DNA of 64,000 bases from a candidate division KSB1 bacterium (GTDB lineage: Bacteria; Electryoneota; RPQS01), in NCBI GenBank assembly GCA_016214895.1, contig JACRMR010000002.1:374001-438000 (forward strand), given 5' to 3'. Shown piece after piece: positions 43,248-53,037 of this stretch; the stretch's first letter is position 1, and every line of letters begins with the position of its first letter. The position numbers and the translations under genes were made by a program. The notes beneath the pieces are model-generated. The model searched no databases, was not told the origin of the DNA, and saw only the letters and a program-made list of their open reading frames with translations.

Positions 43248-44756
43248 ATGAGAGTTCGTCCGGAAGAAATCACTTCCATTCTTAAGGAACAGATTGCCGA
43301 TTATCAGGCACTGTCCTCCGTCGATGAAGTCGGCCGCGTGGTCTATGTCGGCGACGGTATCGCCCGCGTCTATGGCTTGGACAAAGTCATGTACGGAGAG
43401 ATGGTCGAGTTTGCCGGTGGCGCGCTCGGCATGGCGCTCAACCTCGAAGAGGACAACGTCGGTTGCGCGCTCTTCAGCGGCGATGCGCAGATCGCGGAAG
43501 GCAGCGTGGCCAAACGCACCGGACGCGTCGTACAGGTGCCCGTCGGTGACGAACTCGTCGGGCGCGTCGTCAATCCGCTCGGCATGCCGCTCGATGGCAA
43601 GGGGCCGATCAACGCCAAGAAATTCAGCCCGGTTGAACGCCTGGCCACCGGTGTGATCACGCGCCAGCCCGTCAAGGAACCGTTGCAGACCGGGATTAAG
43701 GCGATCGACGCCATGATCCCGATTGGCCGCGGTCAGCGCGAACTTATCATTGGTGACCGCCAGACCGGCAAGACGACGATCGCGCTCGACACGATCATCA
43801 GCCAGAAAGGCACCGGCGTCATTTGTATCTACGTCGCCGTTGGCCAAAAGGGCTCCACGATTGCCAAAGTTGTCAAGACCCTGGACGAACATGGCGCGAT
43901 GGAACACACCATCGTGGTTTCCTCGACCGCGGTCGAGCCCGCGCCGATTCAATTCCTGGCGCCGTATGCCGGCGCCGCCATGGGCGAGTTCTTCCGTGAT
44001 AGCGGTCGGCATGCCGTCTGTATCTATGACGATCTCACCAAGCACGCCTGGGCGTATCGCCAACTTTCGCTTCTGTTGCGCCGCCCGCCGGGCCGCGAAG
44101 CCTATCCCGGCGACGTGTTCTATCTGCACTCACGCCTCCTCGAACGCGCCGCCAAACTTAGCGATGCGCTGGGCGGCGGATCGCTGACTGCCCTGCCGAT
44201 TATCGAAACGCAGGCTGGCGACGTCTCCGCCTATATTCCGACCAACGTGATTTCGATTACCGACGGCCAGATCTTCCTCGAATCAGAACTCTTCTATTCC
44301 GGAATTCGCCCGGCCATCAACGCCGGTATTTCAGTCTCCCGCGTCGGCGGCAATGCGCAGATCAAAGCGATGCGGCAGGTCGGCGGGTCATTGAGACTTG
44401 ATCTTGCCCAGTACCGCGAGCTCGCGGCCTTCGCGCAATTCGGTTCCGATCTCGATAAGGCCACGCTCGCGCAACTCACCCGCGGCGCGCGATTGATGGA
44501 AGTGCTTAAGCAAGGTCAATATGCGCCGTGGCCCGTTGAAGAACAAGTCGCCGTGTTATGGGTGGCGACTCGCGGATACATGGATGATGTTCCGGTCGAT
44601 GCGGTCGGCAAATTCCAGTCCGACCTGCAAAAGTACTTCCGCAGTGCGGGCAAAGCCTTGCTGACCGAGATCACGCAAAAGAAGATCATCGACAAGGAGC
44701 TGGAAGAGAAGTTGACGCAGCTCGCCAAGGACTTCAAGGCGAGCTGGACTAAGTAG
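43248..44756 (+). CDS. atpA: F0F1 ATP synthase subunit alpha
   Basis: The non-catalytic nucleotide-binding subunit, 502 residues. It starts [16 protein letters not shown], carries the Walker [10 protein letters not shown], and has the alpha-specific [39 protein letters not shown] and [14 protein letters not shown] segments. Length is standard. Instead of atpG, the next three genes are GT87-like membrane proteins. Confidence 0.97.
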
Positions 44757-44783
44757 CAGTTTCCGCCACGAGCAAGGGGCGTT

Positions 44784-46067
44784 GTGGAAGTCGTTCGCAG
44801 GCCGCCACCGGACTGGTTGCTGATCGTCGCCCTGCTCACCGGACTGTTCTTGTGGCAGCGCACGGTCTTTCCGCTGTGGATGGTTGATCTTTTCCATATT
44901 CAGTACGCGAGTTACGAATGGAAGCAGGGCGAGCTGCAGTGGATGTACACATCCATCGAAGACACCCGGGACTGGGAAGCACACCGCGCGCCCATCGCCG
45001 CGAAACTTGGAGCCGAAGGTTGGCCTAACGAACCCCTGTACCCGCCGTTCCTGCATGCTCTGCTCTCCCCGTTCGCCGATGCTGATGCCGCTTCATGGAT
45101 GTACACGGTCTTTGCCATGAACTTGCTACTGCTTCCCGCCTTCGCATTAATCGTACTGCGCGCGTGCGAAGTCCGCTGCAGCATGCGCTCCATCCTTTGG
45201 GGACTCGCGCTGGTAATGGTCTGCTATCCGATGGCGCGCGCGACGAAGTTGGGCCAGATCGGGCCCTTGTTGGTGGCGATCACGTGGCTGGCAATCCTCG
45301 CGCTGCGCAGGTCGCGGCAGGTGTTCGGCGGAATCTTGCTCGGCATCGTGGGCGCGCTAAAGATATTTCCGCTGTCGCTCCTGCTGGCGCCGCTGCTATT
45401 GCGCCGTTTCCGGTTTGTGACCGCGGCACTGGTGACCGTGATCGGCATTTACGCCATCAGCCTGTTTGCACTGGGGCTGGAGGTGCACGGCTACTGGTGG
45501 AAGGCGATTACGAAGTTTGGTAATCTCGTTTGGCCGTTCTTTGGTAACCAATCACTGGCGGGTTGGTTCGTGCGGCTGACGTCAGACGTGCGAATGGATG
45601 ATTACCGGCCCGTGCTCGACACAAGAATTGTCTGCTTCCGGCTCGCCGCGTTCGGCGGATGCGTTGTGGCCATCCTGCCGGTGGCAATGCGGATCTGGCG
45701 CAAGAGCAACTCTGCCGCAGCCATCCCGCTGATCGGCCTCGTCATGGGTGCGGTGTTGCTGCTGTTGCCCACCTCGTGGGAGCACTACTGGCTCTGGATG
45801 CTCCCGGTGCTGGGCTGGGCGATTCACCGCGAATGGTGCCGCCAACGCCATTCTGCAACCTCCGCCGTGCTGCTGGGAGTCGCGGCGTTCTTCTTCCTGA
45901 TGAAGCTAACGCGATGCTATGGCGAATCGATGCTCGGCAGGCTTATCTCAGGTTCGCAGACTATCGGCCTAACGCTATTGGTGCTCTGGCTCCTGCTGGA
46001 AATGCGTCGGATGGCGGATCCCTCACCATACGACACCGATGAGACAGTGGTTTCTGCTTCGCGCTGA
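44784..46067 (+). CDS. GT87-like polytopic membrane glycosyltransferase, paralogue 1
   Basis: A 427-residue membrane protein with about ten hydrophobic segments. Landmarks of the GT87/DUF2029 fold appear in order: DLFHIQYASYEW after helix 1 (a possible catalytic Asp), EPLYPPFLHALLSPF, KLGQIGPLLVAI, GALKIFPLSLLLAPLLLRRF, GNQSLAGWFVRL and PTSWEHYWLWMLPVLGW. GT87 enzymes move mannose or another sugar from a polyprenyl phosphate to a lipid or protein outside the membrane; donor and acceptor here are unknown. It starts at GTG 44784, 27 bases after atpA, with GGGG just upstream, and is followed by two related genes. Confidence 0.78.
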   Translation: MEVVRRPPPDWLLIVALLTGLFLWQRTVFPLWMVDLFHIQYASYEWKQGELQWMYTSIEDTRDWEAHRAPIAAKLGAEGWPNEPLYPPFLHALLSPFADADAASWMYTVFAMNLLLLPAFALIVLRACEVRCSMRSILWGLALVMVCYPMARATKLGQIGPLLVAITWLAILALRRSRQVFGGILLGIVGALKIFPLSLLLAPLLLRRFRFVTAALVTVIGIYAISLFALGLEVHGYWWKAITKFGNLVWPFFGNQSLAGWFVRLTSDVRMDDYRPVLDTRIVCFRLAAFGGCVVAILPVAMRIWRKSNSAAAIPLIGLVMGAVLLLLPTSWEHYWLWMLPVLGWAIHREWCRQRHSATSAVLLGVAAFFFLMKLTRCYGESMLGRLISGSQTIGLTLLVLWLLLEMRRMADPSPYDTDETVVSASR

Positions 46068-46116
46068 CGGCTGACCCCGCGACTATTGGCTGATCCCGGC
46101 CTATCTGCTGGTATTC

Positions 46117-47334
46117 TTGCTGTTCGCCCGCGGTGCATTTCCGCTCTCGACTTCCGATCTTTTCCATATCCAATTCGCCGCTTACGAATGGAAGCAGGGA
46201 ACGCTGGAGCGGATCTACACCTCATTCGAGCCCGCGGAATGGGAGGCCTGGCGGGTAGAATGGGAGCGGACGGCGAAGCAATTCGGCGCAGACCTTTACG
46301 ACAATCCGCACTTCTACCCTCCGTTTGTTTCGGCGGCACTGGCTCCGGTTGCGGACGTTCCCGCGGTGTACTGGCGGAATGCTGTGTTTGTCCTGAACTG
46401 CTTGCTACTGATTGCACTCGTGGAAGTGACGCGGCGCCTCTGCCAACTTCCGCCTGGCTGGCGCGGCTTCGTCTGGTTAATGGCGTTCTTCCTCGCCTCC
46501 GTGCCACTGGCAAGTGCGGTCCGCTTCGGCCAATTTGCGTTGCTCGTCACTCTTTGCACATGGTCCGGCCTCCTCGCACTTAGCCGACACCGTGAATCGG
46601 CTGCCGGTCTCCTGATTGGACTCGCCGCGGCAATAAAACTCACCCCCGTCGCGTTTCTCGCGATTCCGACCATTCAGCGAAGATGGCGACCTGTGCTCTT
46701 TGGCGGTTCGCTTGTGGTCACCTTGTTCGCCGCCTCGTGGCTGGTACTCCGCCCTGAAATCCACGCTCAGTGGTGGCGGGCCGCACAGGATGCCAGCCAG
46801 ACGGTTTGGCCGAACGCGCTCGATCAGTCCCTGAGTAGTTGGTTCGCCCGGTTGTTTCTCGGGTGCAGCGTCAACGACCTCTACTTTCCTCAACCGCCGA
46901 CCATTCGACTGCTGCGAATTCTTGGGAATCTCGTTTTCGGATTAGGGACGATGATTGTGCTCTGGGTGCGCCGGCGTAACCTGACCGTTGAGAATTTCCC
47001 CGCCGCGGCGGGCCTGATGGTTTCCGGTGTTGTGCTGGCCCTGCCGTTTGCCTGGAACTACTATTTCCTGCTCTCGATGCCGGTGCTCGCCTGGGCACTG
47101 TTGCGGAGCGAAACGGAACAGGATCGCACGGTCTGGCGCTACGTGCTGTGGACCGTCGCCTTCTTGGTCTTCATGCGGTTCTGGCGATGGTTCGGCGATG
47201 GAGGTGTAGGCAAGATCGCGGCTGGACACATCGCCATCGCCAACCTCCTGCTCTATGCGTGGCTGGTGCAGCGCTTCCTGACTAATCCTGCAATCCGGAA
47301 TCACCGAGCGCTGCAGGTTCCGCCGGCGCCCTGA
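46117..47334 (+). CDS. GT87-like membrane glycosyltransferase, paralogue 2 (start uncertain; in-frame TGA upstream)
   Basis: The open frame from TTG 46117 encodes 405 residues. It shares with paralogue 1 the segments DLFHIQFAAYEWKQG, FYPPFVSAALAP, RFGQFALLVTL, AAAIKLTPVAFLAIP, DQSLSSWFARL and PFAWNYYFLLSMPVLAW. Starting at 46117 would cut off most of the first helix, because in-frame residues upstream (DYWLIPAYLLVF, 46081-46116) align with helix 1 of paralogue 1. The best start, ATG 46039 inside the end of paralogue 1, is separated from this frame by one TGA at 46072-46074. CTG codons at 46090, 46105 and 46108 are other options. The gene may be intact through a rare start, or damaged. Function as for paralogue 1. 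Confidence 0.7.
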   Translation: MLFARGAFPLSTSDLFHIQFAAYEWKQGTLERIYTSFEPAEWEAWRVEWERTAKQFGADLYDNPHFYPPFVSAALAPVADVPAVYWRNAVFVLNCLLLIALVEVTRRLCQLPPGWRGFVWLMAFFLASVPLASAVRFGQFALLVTLCTWSGLLALSRHRESAAGLLIGLAAAIKLTPVAFLAIPTIQRRWRPVLFGGSLVVTLFAASWLVLRPEIHAQWWRAAQDASQTVWPNALDQSLSSWFARLFLGCSVNDLYFPQPPTIRLLRILGNLVFGLGTMIVLWVRRRNLTVENFPAAAGLMVSGVVLALPFAWNYYFLLSMPVLAWALLRSETEQDRTVWRYVLWTVAFLVFMRFWRWFGDGGVGKIAAGHIAIANLLLYAWLVQRFLTNPAIRNHRALQVPPAP

Positions 47335-47352
47335 TTCTCTACGGAGGCTCCC

Positions 47353-48564
47353 GTGGCGTGGTTTCGGTGGCTGCTCGTGAGCATTGCCGCGTTCCAATTC
47401 GTCGCCGTCGGTCTCCCGCCCGGCAACGCGGACCTGCTCTCGATCCAATTGCTGGCCTACGATCTTTCCCACGATGATGTCCGTCTGTTGTATCCGGGCC
47501 GCGACTATGCGTTGAACGAATCGTGGGTCGAGCATCACGAACGCAATCTGCGTGAGTTGCGCGTGGATGGTGAACCCAATTGGTGCTTCTATCCGCCGCT
47601 GGTTCCTTATCTTTGCGTGCCGATAGCTCACGCGGGCATTGAGACCTGGCGAGTCGCCTGGGGAGCGATTCAAATTCTGCTCGCCGTTCTCTACGCGCTG
47701 CTGATAGAGCGGATGCTGACCGCGCTGGCGCTGCCTGCTTCGCGAGTCTTGATCTTTGCACTGGTGTTCGGTTCGTACCCGGTCGCGCGCTCCGTATTCC
47801 TCGGACAGACCAGTTTATTGATCGCCGTCCTGCTCTGGATCGCAATTTACTTGCGCGAGCTTCGCGGGCGATCTTGGTCGGCATTGATCACGGGCGCGGC
47901 TTGTTTCGTAAAGCCGTTCCTGCTGATCGGAGAGCTACCGCGGATCTTTCGGCGACAATACCGGACGACCGCGATTGCGCTGACCATGATGGCAGTATTG
48001 CTGGCGATCTCCCTTGCGATACTGGGCGTGACCGCGCATCGCGAGTACTGGAATCTGCTCAGCACGCTGGGCGCCTCGCAAACCGCGTTCAGCGGAAACC
48101 AGAGTCTGCTCGCGGGACTCATGCGGATCGGGACTCCAGTGTCGGTCTCCGACTATGGCTTTCAGATGGACCCGACGCTGAATGGGGTCGGGAAACTCGT
48201 CGCTCTCGTCGTATTGGCGATCGCCGCCGGGGCGCAGCTGCGTTCGAAGCACGTCCGAATTGTGTATTCCGTGGGGCTTTGGTACTCGGCGATTCTACTC
48301 GCGTTGCCGATCTCGTGGGAACACCACCTGATTATCCTGCTGCCGGTGATCGCATTCCTCTGGGCGGAGCAACCCCGGCCTTTCGTCCCACTGCTCGTGA
48401 CCACCCTGGCGCTCTCCGTCGCGCTGGAGTCGAGCTATGGCGACACTGCCGGCGGCAAACTCGCGTCGATCGTTCCGCTATTCGGCAACTGTTGTCTGTT
48501 CGTCCTGCTCACCCGTTTGCATCTGAAGAGCCGCCGCACCCCGGCGCTGCCCGCCACCTCCTGA
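47353..48564 (+). CDS. GT87-like polytopic membrane glycosyltransferase, paralogue 3
   Basis: A 403-residue polytopic protein, the most divergent of the three. It retains DLLSIQLLAYDLSHD after helix 1, CFYPPLVPYLCVPI, FLGQTSLLIAV, AACFVKPFLLIGELPRIFRR, GNQSLLAGLMRIG and PISWEHHLIILLPVIAF, the last being the classic GT87 form. GGAGG at 47343-47347 lies five bases before the GTG start. The gap to atpG is only ten bases, so this gene and atpG are surely on one transcript. Substrates are unknown. Confidence 0.78.
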   Translation: MAWFRWLLVSIAAFQFVAVGLPPGNADLLSIQLLAYDLSHDDVRLLYPGRDYALNESWVEHHERNLRELRVDGEPNWCFYPPLVPYLCVPIAHAGIETWRVAWGAIQILLAVLYALLIERMLTALALPASRVLIFALVFGSYPVARSVFLGQTSLLIAVLLWIAIYLRELRGRSWSALITGAACFVKPFLLIGELPRIFRRQYRTTAIALTMMAVLLAISLAILGVTAHREYWNLLSTLGASQTAFSGNQSLLAGLMRIGTPVSVSDYGFQMDPTLNGVGKLVALVVLAIAAGAQLRSKHVRIVYSVGLWYSAILLALPISWEHHLIILLPVIAFLWAEQPRPFVPLLVTTLALSVALESSYGDTAGGKLASIVPLFGNCCLFVLLTRLHLKSRRTPALPATS

Positions 48565-48574
48565 ATCCGATCCT

Positions 48575-49432
48575 ATGTCCGGTCTGAAGCTAATCAAGCG
48601 TCGCATTCGCAGCGTGCAATCCACGCAGCAGATCACCCGCGTGATGAAGATGGTGGCTGCCGCAAAACTGCGACGCGCCCAGGAGAACATCGTTCGCGCC
48701 CGCCCGTATTCGCTCCGGCTGCGGCGGGTCATCCGCGAGGTCTCCGCGCGCATCGACCGCTCGGCGCATCCGCTGCTTGCCTTGAAACCGCAAAAAGAGC
48801 TGGGCATTGTGGTCGTGACCGGCGACCGCGGACTGTGCGGCTCGTTCAATACGAATATCCTGCGCCGCGCGCAACGCCTGATCGAGGAGAACCGACACCA
48901 AAGAGTGTTCCTGTTCACGGTCGGCAAGCGCGGCACCGAGTTTTTTACCCGTCGCGGCGCGGCGATCACACACTCGTTGATCGGGCTCTTCAATCACCTG
49001 CACTTCCATCATGCGCAGGAACTCGCGGACGAGATCATCGACCGCTACCACCATCATGACATGGATCATGTGGTCGTCGTGTACAATGAGTTCAAGTCGG
49101 CGATCCAGCAAAACGTCGTCGTCGAGTCGCTGCTCCCGATCGTTCCGGACGAGTCCGATCATGATGGTCCGACCGCCGATATCATTTACGAACCGTCGGA
49201 ACTCGAAATCCTGAATTCAATCCTGCCGCAGTTCGTGGAAGTGCAGCTCTGGCGCATCATGCAGGAATCCTTTGCCGCCGAGATGGGCGCGCGCATGACG
49301 GCCATGGAAAACGCCACGAAGAATGCGCAAGAATTAATTGAATCGCTTACGCTGACCTACAACAAGGTGCGGCAGGCCTCCATCACCAACGAAATTCTCG
49401 AAGTCGTAGCCGGCGCGGAAAGCCTGCGCTGA
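48575..49432 (+). CDS. atpG: F0F1 ATP synthase subunit gamma
   Basis: The central rotor shaft, 285 residues. It begins MSGLKLIKRRIRSVQSTQQI with the long N-terminal helix (TRVMKMVAAAKLRRAQ), has VVTGDRGLCGSFN in the middle and ends with the C-terminal helix EMGARMTAMENATKNAQELI. Length and motifs are normal. It is separated from atpA by three unrelated genes and from atpD by two, which is unusual. Confidence 0.96.
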   Translation: MSGLKLIKRRIRSVQSTQQITRVMKMVAAAKLRRAQENIVRARPYSLRLRRVIREVSARIDRSAHPLLALKPQKELGIVVVTGDRGLCGSFNTNILRRAQRLIEENRHQRVFLFTVGKRGTEFFTRRGAAITHSLIGLFNHLHFHHAQELADEIIDRYHHHDMDHVVVVYNEFKSAIQQNVVVESLLPIVPDESDHDGPTADIIYEPSELEILNSILPQFVEVQLWRIMQESFAAEMGARMTAMENATKNAQELIESLTLTYNKVRQASITNEILEVVAGAESLR

Positions 49433-49694: not shown

Positions 49695-50288
49695 ATGGGC
49701 TTCACTGGTGGCCGTAAACGCGTCTCAATTTTTGTTGACGGCGCAAACATGTTTTACACGCAGAAGAAAGGACTTGGCTGGTTCTTCGATCCGGCCAAAC
49801 TGCTGAAGGTCCTGCGTTCTGACGACGACCTTACTGACGCTTACTGGTATATGGGACTCAAACAGCCGCCGGACCCGCGTGATGAGAACTTCGTCCGATT
49901 CTTGGCTTATGCCGGCTACGTCGTGCGTACAAAAGGTCTCAAGACCATCTATGATCAGGAAACCGGCGAGACCACGCAAAAGGCGAATCTCGACGTTGAA
50001 ATCGTCATGGATATGTTCAACACCGTCGAGAACTACGACAAAGCGATTCTGCTGTCGGGTGACGGCGACTTCGAACGCGCACTTGAGCTGCTGCGCTCGC
50101 GAGGCAAGGAGATCTGCGTCGTCTCCACGCAGAACTGGATCGCCGCGGAATTGAGAATGGCGGTCGGATCGCACTTCGTGGATCTGCAGGACCTGCGGCA
50201 ACAGATCGAACGCACGGACCGCGTCGCCCCGAGCGAAGCGCAGGCCGCCCGCGCCGCGGAAGCCGCCGCCAGCAGCTCCGATTCCTGA
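49695..50288 (+). CDS. NYN-domain (LabA/DUF88) putative ribonuclease
   Basis: A 197-residue cytosolic protein. The PIN-like NYN fold is shown by its acidic residues: VSIFVDGANMFY (about 11-22), DVEIVMDMF near the centre, and LLSGDGDFERALELLRSRGK, ending in FVDLQDL. These supply the metal-binding aspartates of this nuclease family. The last 30 residues are Ala/Glu-rich and likely disordered. AAGGA lies 11 bases before the ATG. RNA targets cannot be inferred. It sits in the atp operon, two bases before the HEAT-like gene, so the two may act together. Confidence 0.82.
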   Translation: MGFTGGRKRVSIFVDGANMFYTQKKGLGWFFDPAKLLKVLRSDDDLTDAYWYMGLKQPPDPRDENFVRFLAYAGYVVRTKGLKTIYDQETGETTQKANLDVEIVMDMFNTVENYDKAILLSGDGDFERALELLRSRGKEICVVSTQNWIAAELRMAVGSHFVDLQDLRQQIERTDRVAPSEAQAARAAEAAASSSDS

Positions 50289-50290
50289 CG

Positions 50291-51085
50291 TTGACGTCGT
50301 CGCCGGACCACGCCGCGACCGCTCGCATTGTCGAGCTCTTTGAAGCGTATCTACAAGACCCCGACGACCTGTCGATGCCGGAGCTGGACGCGCTGACCGA
50401 GCTGCTCCCGCTCTTCCCGCCCGAATCGATCCGCTCGGTCGCGCGAACCGTGGCGATCCTCGTCGAGAACAAGCCCAAACAAGCGCTGGAGCTGGCGCTG
50501 AAACTGGCGGCGTCCGAGGAACCCGCGACCCGCGCCGTTGCCGCGGGAATCATCTCCCGGCTCGCACAGTTTCAGCCAGCCCTGTGGCGCGATTTCGGAC
50601 GGATGCTCGTCGCCGATCCGGTCTGGGAAGTGCGGCTGCATGCCGCCAGGATCTTCGATTCCTACGCGGAGGGAGAAGGTGCCGCGGAGTATCACATTGA
50701 CTTCGTCTTCGAGTTGGTGAACGAATGGGTTCGCGACCAACAGTATCTCGTTCGCCACGCGGCTACGCAAGCCCTGCTCGGATGGGCCGGTCTGCACCTC
50801 GAACAGGTACCGCGGTTGTTGGCGGCACTTGAACCGACCTTCAACGATCCCATCGAATACGTGCGCGCCGGAGGTGTGCTCGCCCTGCGTGCCATCGGGC
50901 GTAAACGGCCGCCGCTGGTGCTCTCTTATATAGAACTTAGATTGGACGACCTCGGTGAATTCGAGCGGGAGACCTACTTGTCCGCGCTCGATGACCGGTT
51001 CGCCAATGCTCATACCGAGTGGAAGTCGCGGCTGATGGAAGGTCTGAGTCAGCCGCCGTCGGTTCCTCCCGCGAACATCGAATAG
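50291..51085 (+). CDS. HEAT-repeat-like protein
   Basis: A 264-residue, mainly helical protein. Paired-helix units are visible around ATRAVAAGIISRLAQFQPAL, DPVWEVRLHAARIFDSYAEG, DQQYLVRHAATQALLGWAGL and DPIEYVRAGGVLALRAIGRK, with the D-P...VR..A pattern of HEAT repeats. Such proteins bind other proteins or nucleic acids and are rarely enzymes. It starts at TTG 50291, two bases after the NYN gene, and ends 18 bases before atpD. A partner role to the NYN protein or to F1 assembly is possible but is inference. Confidence 0.7.
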   Translation: MTSSPDHAATARIVELFEAYLQDPDDLSMPELDALTELLPLFPPESIRSVARTVAILVENKPKQALELALKLAASEEPATRAVAAGIISRLAQFQPALWRDFGRMLVADPVWEVRLHAARIFDSYAEGEGAAEYHIDFVFELVNEWVRDQQYLVRHAATQALLGWAGLHLEQVPRLLAALEPTFNDPIEYVRAGGVLALRAIGRKRPPLVLSYIELRLDDLGEFERETYLSALDDRFANAHTEWKSRLMEGLSQPPSVPPANIE

Positions 51086-52974: not shown

Positions 52975-53000
52975 CATAGACTTCGCCATAGCAATGCGCA

Positions 53001-53037
53001 GCGGGCAATTCCCTCGGGAGTTGCCCGCTTCCTCTTT
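53001..53037 (+). terminator. Rho-independent terminator of the atp operon
   Basis: GCGGGCAA (53001-53008) pairs with TTGCCCGC (53021-53028), and the inner TCCC/GGGA bases extend the stem to about 12 bp. A pyrimidine-rich tail TTCCTCTTT follows. It lies 27 bases after the atpC stop. Confidence 0.8.

Follow-up and report, generated by a model that had tools for sequence, protein, structure and literature searches.

ATP synthase operons are among the most conserved gene clusters of bacteria, and in their standard order (atpIBEFHAGDC) the gene for the F1 alpha subunit, atpA, is followed by that for the F1 gamma subunit, atpG. The closest described relative of the proteins considered here is PimE, a mycobacterial polyprenyl-phosphate-mannose mannosyltransferase of family GT87 whose substrates are the PIM glycolipids. 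Residues Y92, Q163, K195, and W319 of PimE sit at the donor phosphate, and mutating each of them abolishes activity; H321 and H322 contribute to activity, and D58 is the catalytic base (PMC12041525).

The window, by which we mean the entire 64,000-nucleotide stretch of a candidate division KSB1 genome that was analysed, holds an atp operon whose gene order is otherwise the standard one but to which two sets of genes have been added: an array of GT87 genes between atpA and atpG, peculiar to one family, and, throughout the order, genes for an NYN protein and a HEAT protein between atpG and atpD. The array is old and family wide; we consider it likely that its GT87 genes encode transferases of envelope sugars and that it occupies an inherited slot in which it is probably cotranscribed with the atp operon. 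It is unusual for a whole lineage to carry an array of outward-facing sugar transferases within an atp operon, and the open-access literature that we searched yielded no report of this. The reading of this DNA from its letters, without database searches (hereafter, the sequence-only reading), knew of no precedent for a constant link between glycosylation of lipids or proteins and the expression of ATP synthase.

The atpA-atpG interval holds three GT87 genes

All five genes of the interval atpA-a-b-c-atpG are on the + strand (coordinates are positions within the window). The sequence-only reading placed the three GT87-like genes correctly. The atpA open reading frame (F1 alpha; 43248 to 44756, +), whose family orthologues are 79 to 88% identical where found, forms the 5' flank and is followed after 27 bp by gene a (44784 to 46067, +), which has a GTG start and encodes 427 amino acids. 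Gene b is an open frame at 46075 to 47334 (+), and 18 bp beyond it lies gene c (47353 to 48564, +), which encodes 403 amino acids from a GTG that has a clear GGAGG ahead of it. Another 10 bp separates gene c from atpG (F1 gamma; 48575 to 49432, +; 332 bits to TIGR01146), the 3' flank; the open reading frame coordinates thus agree with all three gap lengths that had been read earlier.

Profile searches assign the three proteins to GT87 (PF09594) at 89.4, 98.5, and 60 bits for a, b, and c, respectively, against a curated cutoff of 25, and these are the sole GT87 matches in the 3.2-Mb genome. The enzymes themselves are ordinary members of GT87, the assignment that the sequence-only reading had proposed. 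Pairwise identity is 36% between a and b and 29% between a and c. All six motifs that had been described as common to the three proteins are present and in the order given, but two of the consensus strings need a small correction: the lysine motif is [LIV]K, not [IV]K, because gene a reads LK-IFP, and the string written as [GD]xQSL is [ND]QSL, because gene b reads LDQSL.

The array is carried by an entire family

We compared 39 genomes of the phylum, among them 11 genomes, from 8 genera, of the window's family (the window's own genome is G000). GT87 genes lie directly 5' of atpG in all 11, in one to three copies and never zero, and directly 3' of atpA in the 10 whose contigs extend that far (the contig of G002 starts within gene a, leaving its atpA out of view, and that of G001 stops within atpG). 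Genes a, b, and c occur together in G000; a and c in G001, G002, G005, G007, G008, and G009; a alone in G004, G006, and G010; and c alone in G003. Outside the family, none of the 25 genomes with a readable slot has a GT87 gene between atpA and atpG, and in 22 of them, the two genes are adjacent, 19 to 430 bp apart.

Since every genome of the family carries the array and no other readable slot does, the array marks one family and is neither a recent insertion nor an assembly join, the two explanations that the sequence-only reading had tied to adjacent atpA and atpG genes in close relatives. The family is represented here mostly by multicontig assemblies of varying completeness, a circumstance in which assembly or binning might join a glycosyltransferase locus to an atp cluster; however, ten other genomes, each assembled separately, show the identical order, which refutes such a join, and the array resembles the adjoining atp genes in both GC and GC3. 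We therefore regard the chance of an artefact as negligible.

In both genomes of the sister family, the slot holds an unrelated DUF6081 (PF19559) gene of approximately 230 codons (L053:8890-9570 and L052:10878-11579), and no DUF6081 gene was detected in the window's family. A PMT_2 gene (PF13231) lies between atpA and atpG in G013, a genome of the same phylum. PMT_2 is also a GT-C-type family and is found here in the same slot, but it is a different Pfam family and is present in a single genome; because the other examined genomes of G013's family have adjacent atpA and atpG genes, it is probably an independent insertion.

The donor site of PimE is retained, and its acceptor site is not

PimE is the sole sequence-level match of the array proteins in the PDB, and it is also the best structural match for a and c. 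The AlphaFold (AF2) model of gene a (pLDDT of 88.7) is closest to PimE 9dm5 (E value of 2.6e-8; TM of 0.65/0.72), and that of gene c (pLDDT of 83.6) is closest to PimE 9dm7 and 9dm5 (E value of 1.5e-7). Both models have the multispanning GT-C fold, although identity to PimE in the structural alignments is just 17 to 20%. The next-ranked matches, eukaryotic GPI mannosyltransferase I and ALG3 (GT-C enzymes that use Dol-P-Man), share the GT-C topology but belong to different families, and the likeness is weak (11 to 15% identity).

In HMMER alignments, the four donor-phosphate residues of PimE fall on residues that are invariant in both clades of the array proteins, gene b included (Y86, Q158, K193, and W332 in the a type and Y80, Q152, K187, and W322 in the c type). 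An invariant aspartate (D35 in a and D27 in c) occupies the tip of the first helix after TM1 in the models, in the place of PimE D58, and would be the catalytic base; its match to D58 rests on topology and invariance because the HMMER alignments begin downstream of this residue. At the positions aligned with the PimE acceptor residues D160-Y161, in contrast, the array proteins have other residues, which makes them PimE-like rather than PimE. The positions of H321-H322 are occupied by HY in the a clade, YY in gene b, and HH in the c clade. The retention of the donor residues, the replacement of D160-Y161, and the difference between a and c at H321-H322 together suggest that the kind of donor is the same as that of PimE and that the acceptors are different.

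Homology to PimE thus lends support to the outward-facing, polyprenyl-phosphate-sugar chemistry that had been attributed to these proteins. Each enzyme would probably take a sugar from a polyprenyl-phosphate carrier made by a DPMS-like GT2 enzyme and, on the outer side of the cytoplasmic membrane, transfer it to an acceptor other than that of PimE, with a-type and c-type enzymes probably differing in their acceptors. By homology, mannose is the likeliest sugar, but this is only a guess since matches to the NCBIfam equivalog for PRK13375 mannosyltransferase (NF009915) reach only 28 to 42 bits, far below the cutoff of 413. At another locus, the genome encodes a candidate for the carrier-charging enzyme, a DPMS-like GT2 protein that scores 109 bits against the DPMS structure 5mlz and is 73 to 83% identical within the family; its occurrence in 37 of the 39 phylum genomes shows that its distribution is not tied to the array. 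A GtrA flippase was considered as a further partner and rejected, being absent from G000 and from most family members.

The array is an old duplication with later turnover

The maximum-likelihood tree places the GT87s of the atp operons in a single group, separate from all other GT87s in the sample (support of 99/95), in keeping with the earlier suggestion that the three genes descend from one ancestor. Within this group are a c clade (100/100) and an a clade (100/98), the latter including gene b and a stray copy from G012; gene b sits on a long branch as a diverged a-type duplicate, and its placement as sister to gene a within G000 is neither established nor rejected (AU p = 0.42). The a-type tree conflicts with the tree of ATP synthase and NYN sequences, grouping of the a genes of G004, G006, and G010 being rejected (AU p = 0.0003), a conflict that is consistent either with differential loss after tandem duplication or with replacement at the site. 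As these phylogenies portray it, the array is an old duplication into a-type and c-type genes that has undergone turnover since.

Substitution rates for G001 and G008, which belong to one genus, indicate that the array is under purifying selection: dN/dS is approximately 0.16 for gene a (dN of 0.18 and dS of 1.16) and approximately 0.23 for gene c (0.33 and 1.45), with approximately 0.09 for atpA. Identity within one genus is 44% for GT87 versus 91% for AtpA, with the caveat that the GT87 pair may be paralogues.

Gene b is unusual at its 5' end. No ATG, GTG, or TTG lies upstream of the first transmembrane helix, and no Shine-Dalgarno-like site is evident; the earliest standard start is the TTG at 46117, within that helix, and the nearest alternative is a CTG at 46090. 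Outside this region (46075 to 46117), the frame is intact, and WNYY replaces WEHY, with the loss of the motif histidine. A nonstandard start, an N-terminal frameshift, or early decay are all possible causes of the start anomaly, and given the missing start and the lost histidine, the protein may be weakly made or altered.

This gene, perhaps on its way out of the genome, and the variation among genomes in copy number and in the surviving type could mean that the GT87 genes are passengers in a permissive gap of the operon, in which copies are born and decay with no lasting function. The conflict between the a-type and ATP synthase trees would fit such passengers, and DNA methyltransferase-like and PMT_2 genes fill gaps in the atp operons of other families. 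We nevertheless think this explanation improbable: selection has constrained the array, the donor-site residues are fully kept in every copy, that of gene b included, and each member of the family retains at least one copy. Under the reading that we favor, envelope glycosyltransferases of the GT-C fold would have entered the slot between atpA and atpG by the time of the family's ancestor and stayed there since.

An a-type GT87 gene is also present outside the atp operon in G012, a member of the sister family, beside genes resembling those for indolepyruvate-ferredoxin oxidoreductase (L043:6616-7653 and L074:1-252). We rejected this copy as a relic of the ancestral state because it nests inside the a clade of the window's family (98/94), and it is more likely the result of transfer (or of bin contamination).

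Relation of the array to ATP synthase

No promoter or terminator signals above chance were found across the region. The one strong hairpin, a 13-pair terminator-like structure at 53000 to 53029 (+), follows atpC and likely ends the operon; weaker terminator-like matches within the GT87 stretch are no more numerous than chance would produce over the region. Together with the short gaps, this suggests, as far as the DNA alone can tell, that the array and the atp genes form one transcript.

The sequence-only reading went further and linked glycosylation to ATP synthase expression. The constant association of the genes stands, in 11 of 11 family genomes; a functional link is the weaker proposition. 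If the two were coupled, the enzymes might glycosylate an extracytoplasmic part of ATP synthase or tune the lipids near it, and selection would keep their expression matched; all 8 genera have indeed kept the array in the slot even as copies were duplicated and lost, and AtpB begins with a signal peptide-like sequence and has an N-terminal linker, of low complexity and probably periplasmic, that could serve as a target. The linker, however, does not track the array: most of the phylum has it, and two array-free families (f5 and f7) have longer versions. Moreover, the sister family has the same operon with its DUF6081 gene in the slot, and the pace of evolution or turnover is far higher in the GT87 proteins than in AtpA. 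Synteny of the surrounding SpoU-M23-bactofilin-atp context extends over much of the phylum in any case, so that retention of the array needs no special cause and is explained by inherited position. The atp operons of other families also often carry unrelated inserts (methyltransferase-like genes, a HEPN/MNT-like pair, and lipoprotein-like genes, all read by eye). Functional coupling is therefore, in our judgment, unlikely.

Synteny across much of the phylum, the unrelated inserts, and an AtpB linker that is longest where there is no array all favor envelope glycosyltransferases in an inherited slot. The acceptor would then more likely be a glycolipid or glycan of the envelope than ATP synthase itself, and although the position would give coexpression with the F1 subunits, it is most likely an inherited and tolerated site within an operon prone to interruption in this phylum. 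If the association is functional, it would be a rare case, in a whole bacterial family, of glycosylation genetically tied to energy conversion; a purely historical association still offers a clean example of the tandem birth and death of membrane enzymes within a core operon. The array is also a source of GT87 enzymes for characterization, with a donor site that is conserved and acceptor sites that are new.

Other genes of the atp loci

The atp operons at L054:1645-6332 and L080:4396-6028, from other genomes of the phylum, are interrupted by DNA methyltransferase-like genes, accompanied in L080 by a HEPN/MNT-like pair (both read by eye), and L054 has a PMT_2 gene, identified by a profile test, between atpA and atpG.

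The interval between atpG and atpD (49695 to 51085 of the window) encodes an NYN-domain protein (a putative RNase; PF01936) and a HEAT-repeat protein, and both are found there in all 13 genomes of the order. The NYN protein is 79 to 92% identical, approximately the conservation of AtpD and greater than that of AtpG, and nothing similar turned up in the atp loci examined from other families. Three genomes of the window's family have an extra open reading frame of approximately 212 to 251 codons between atpG and the NYN gene (L038:7002-7646, L042:10422-11057, and L039:12221-12973), and the predicted products have similar C termini (VPMRRHRRLYL).
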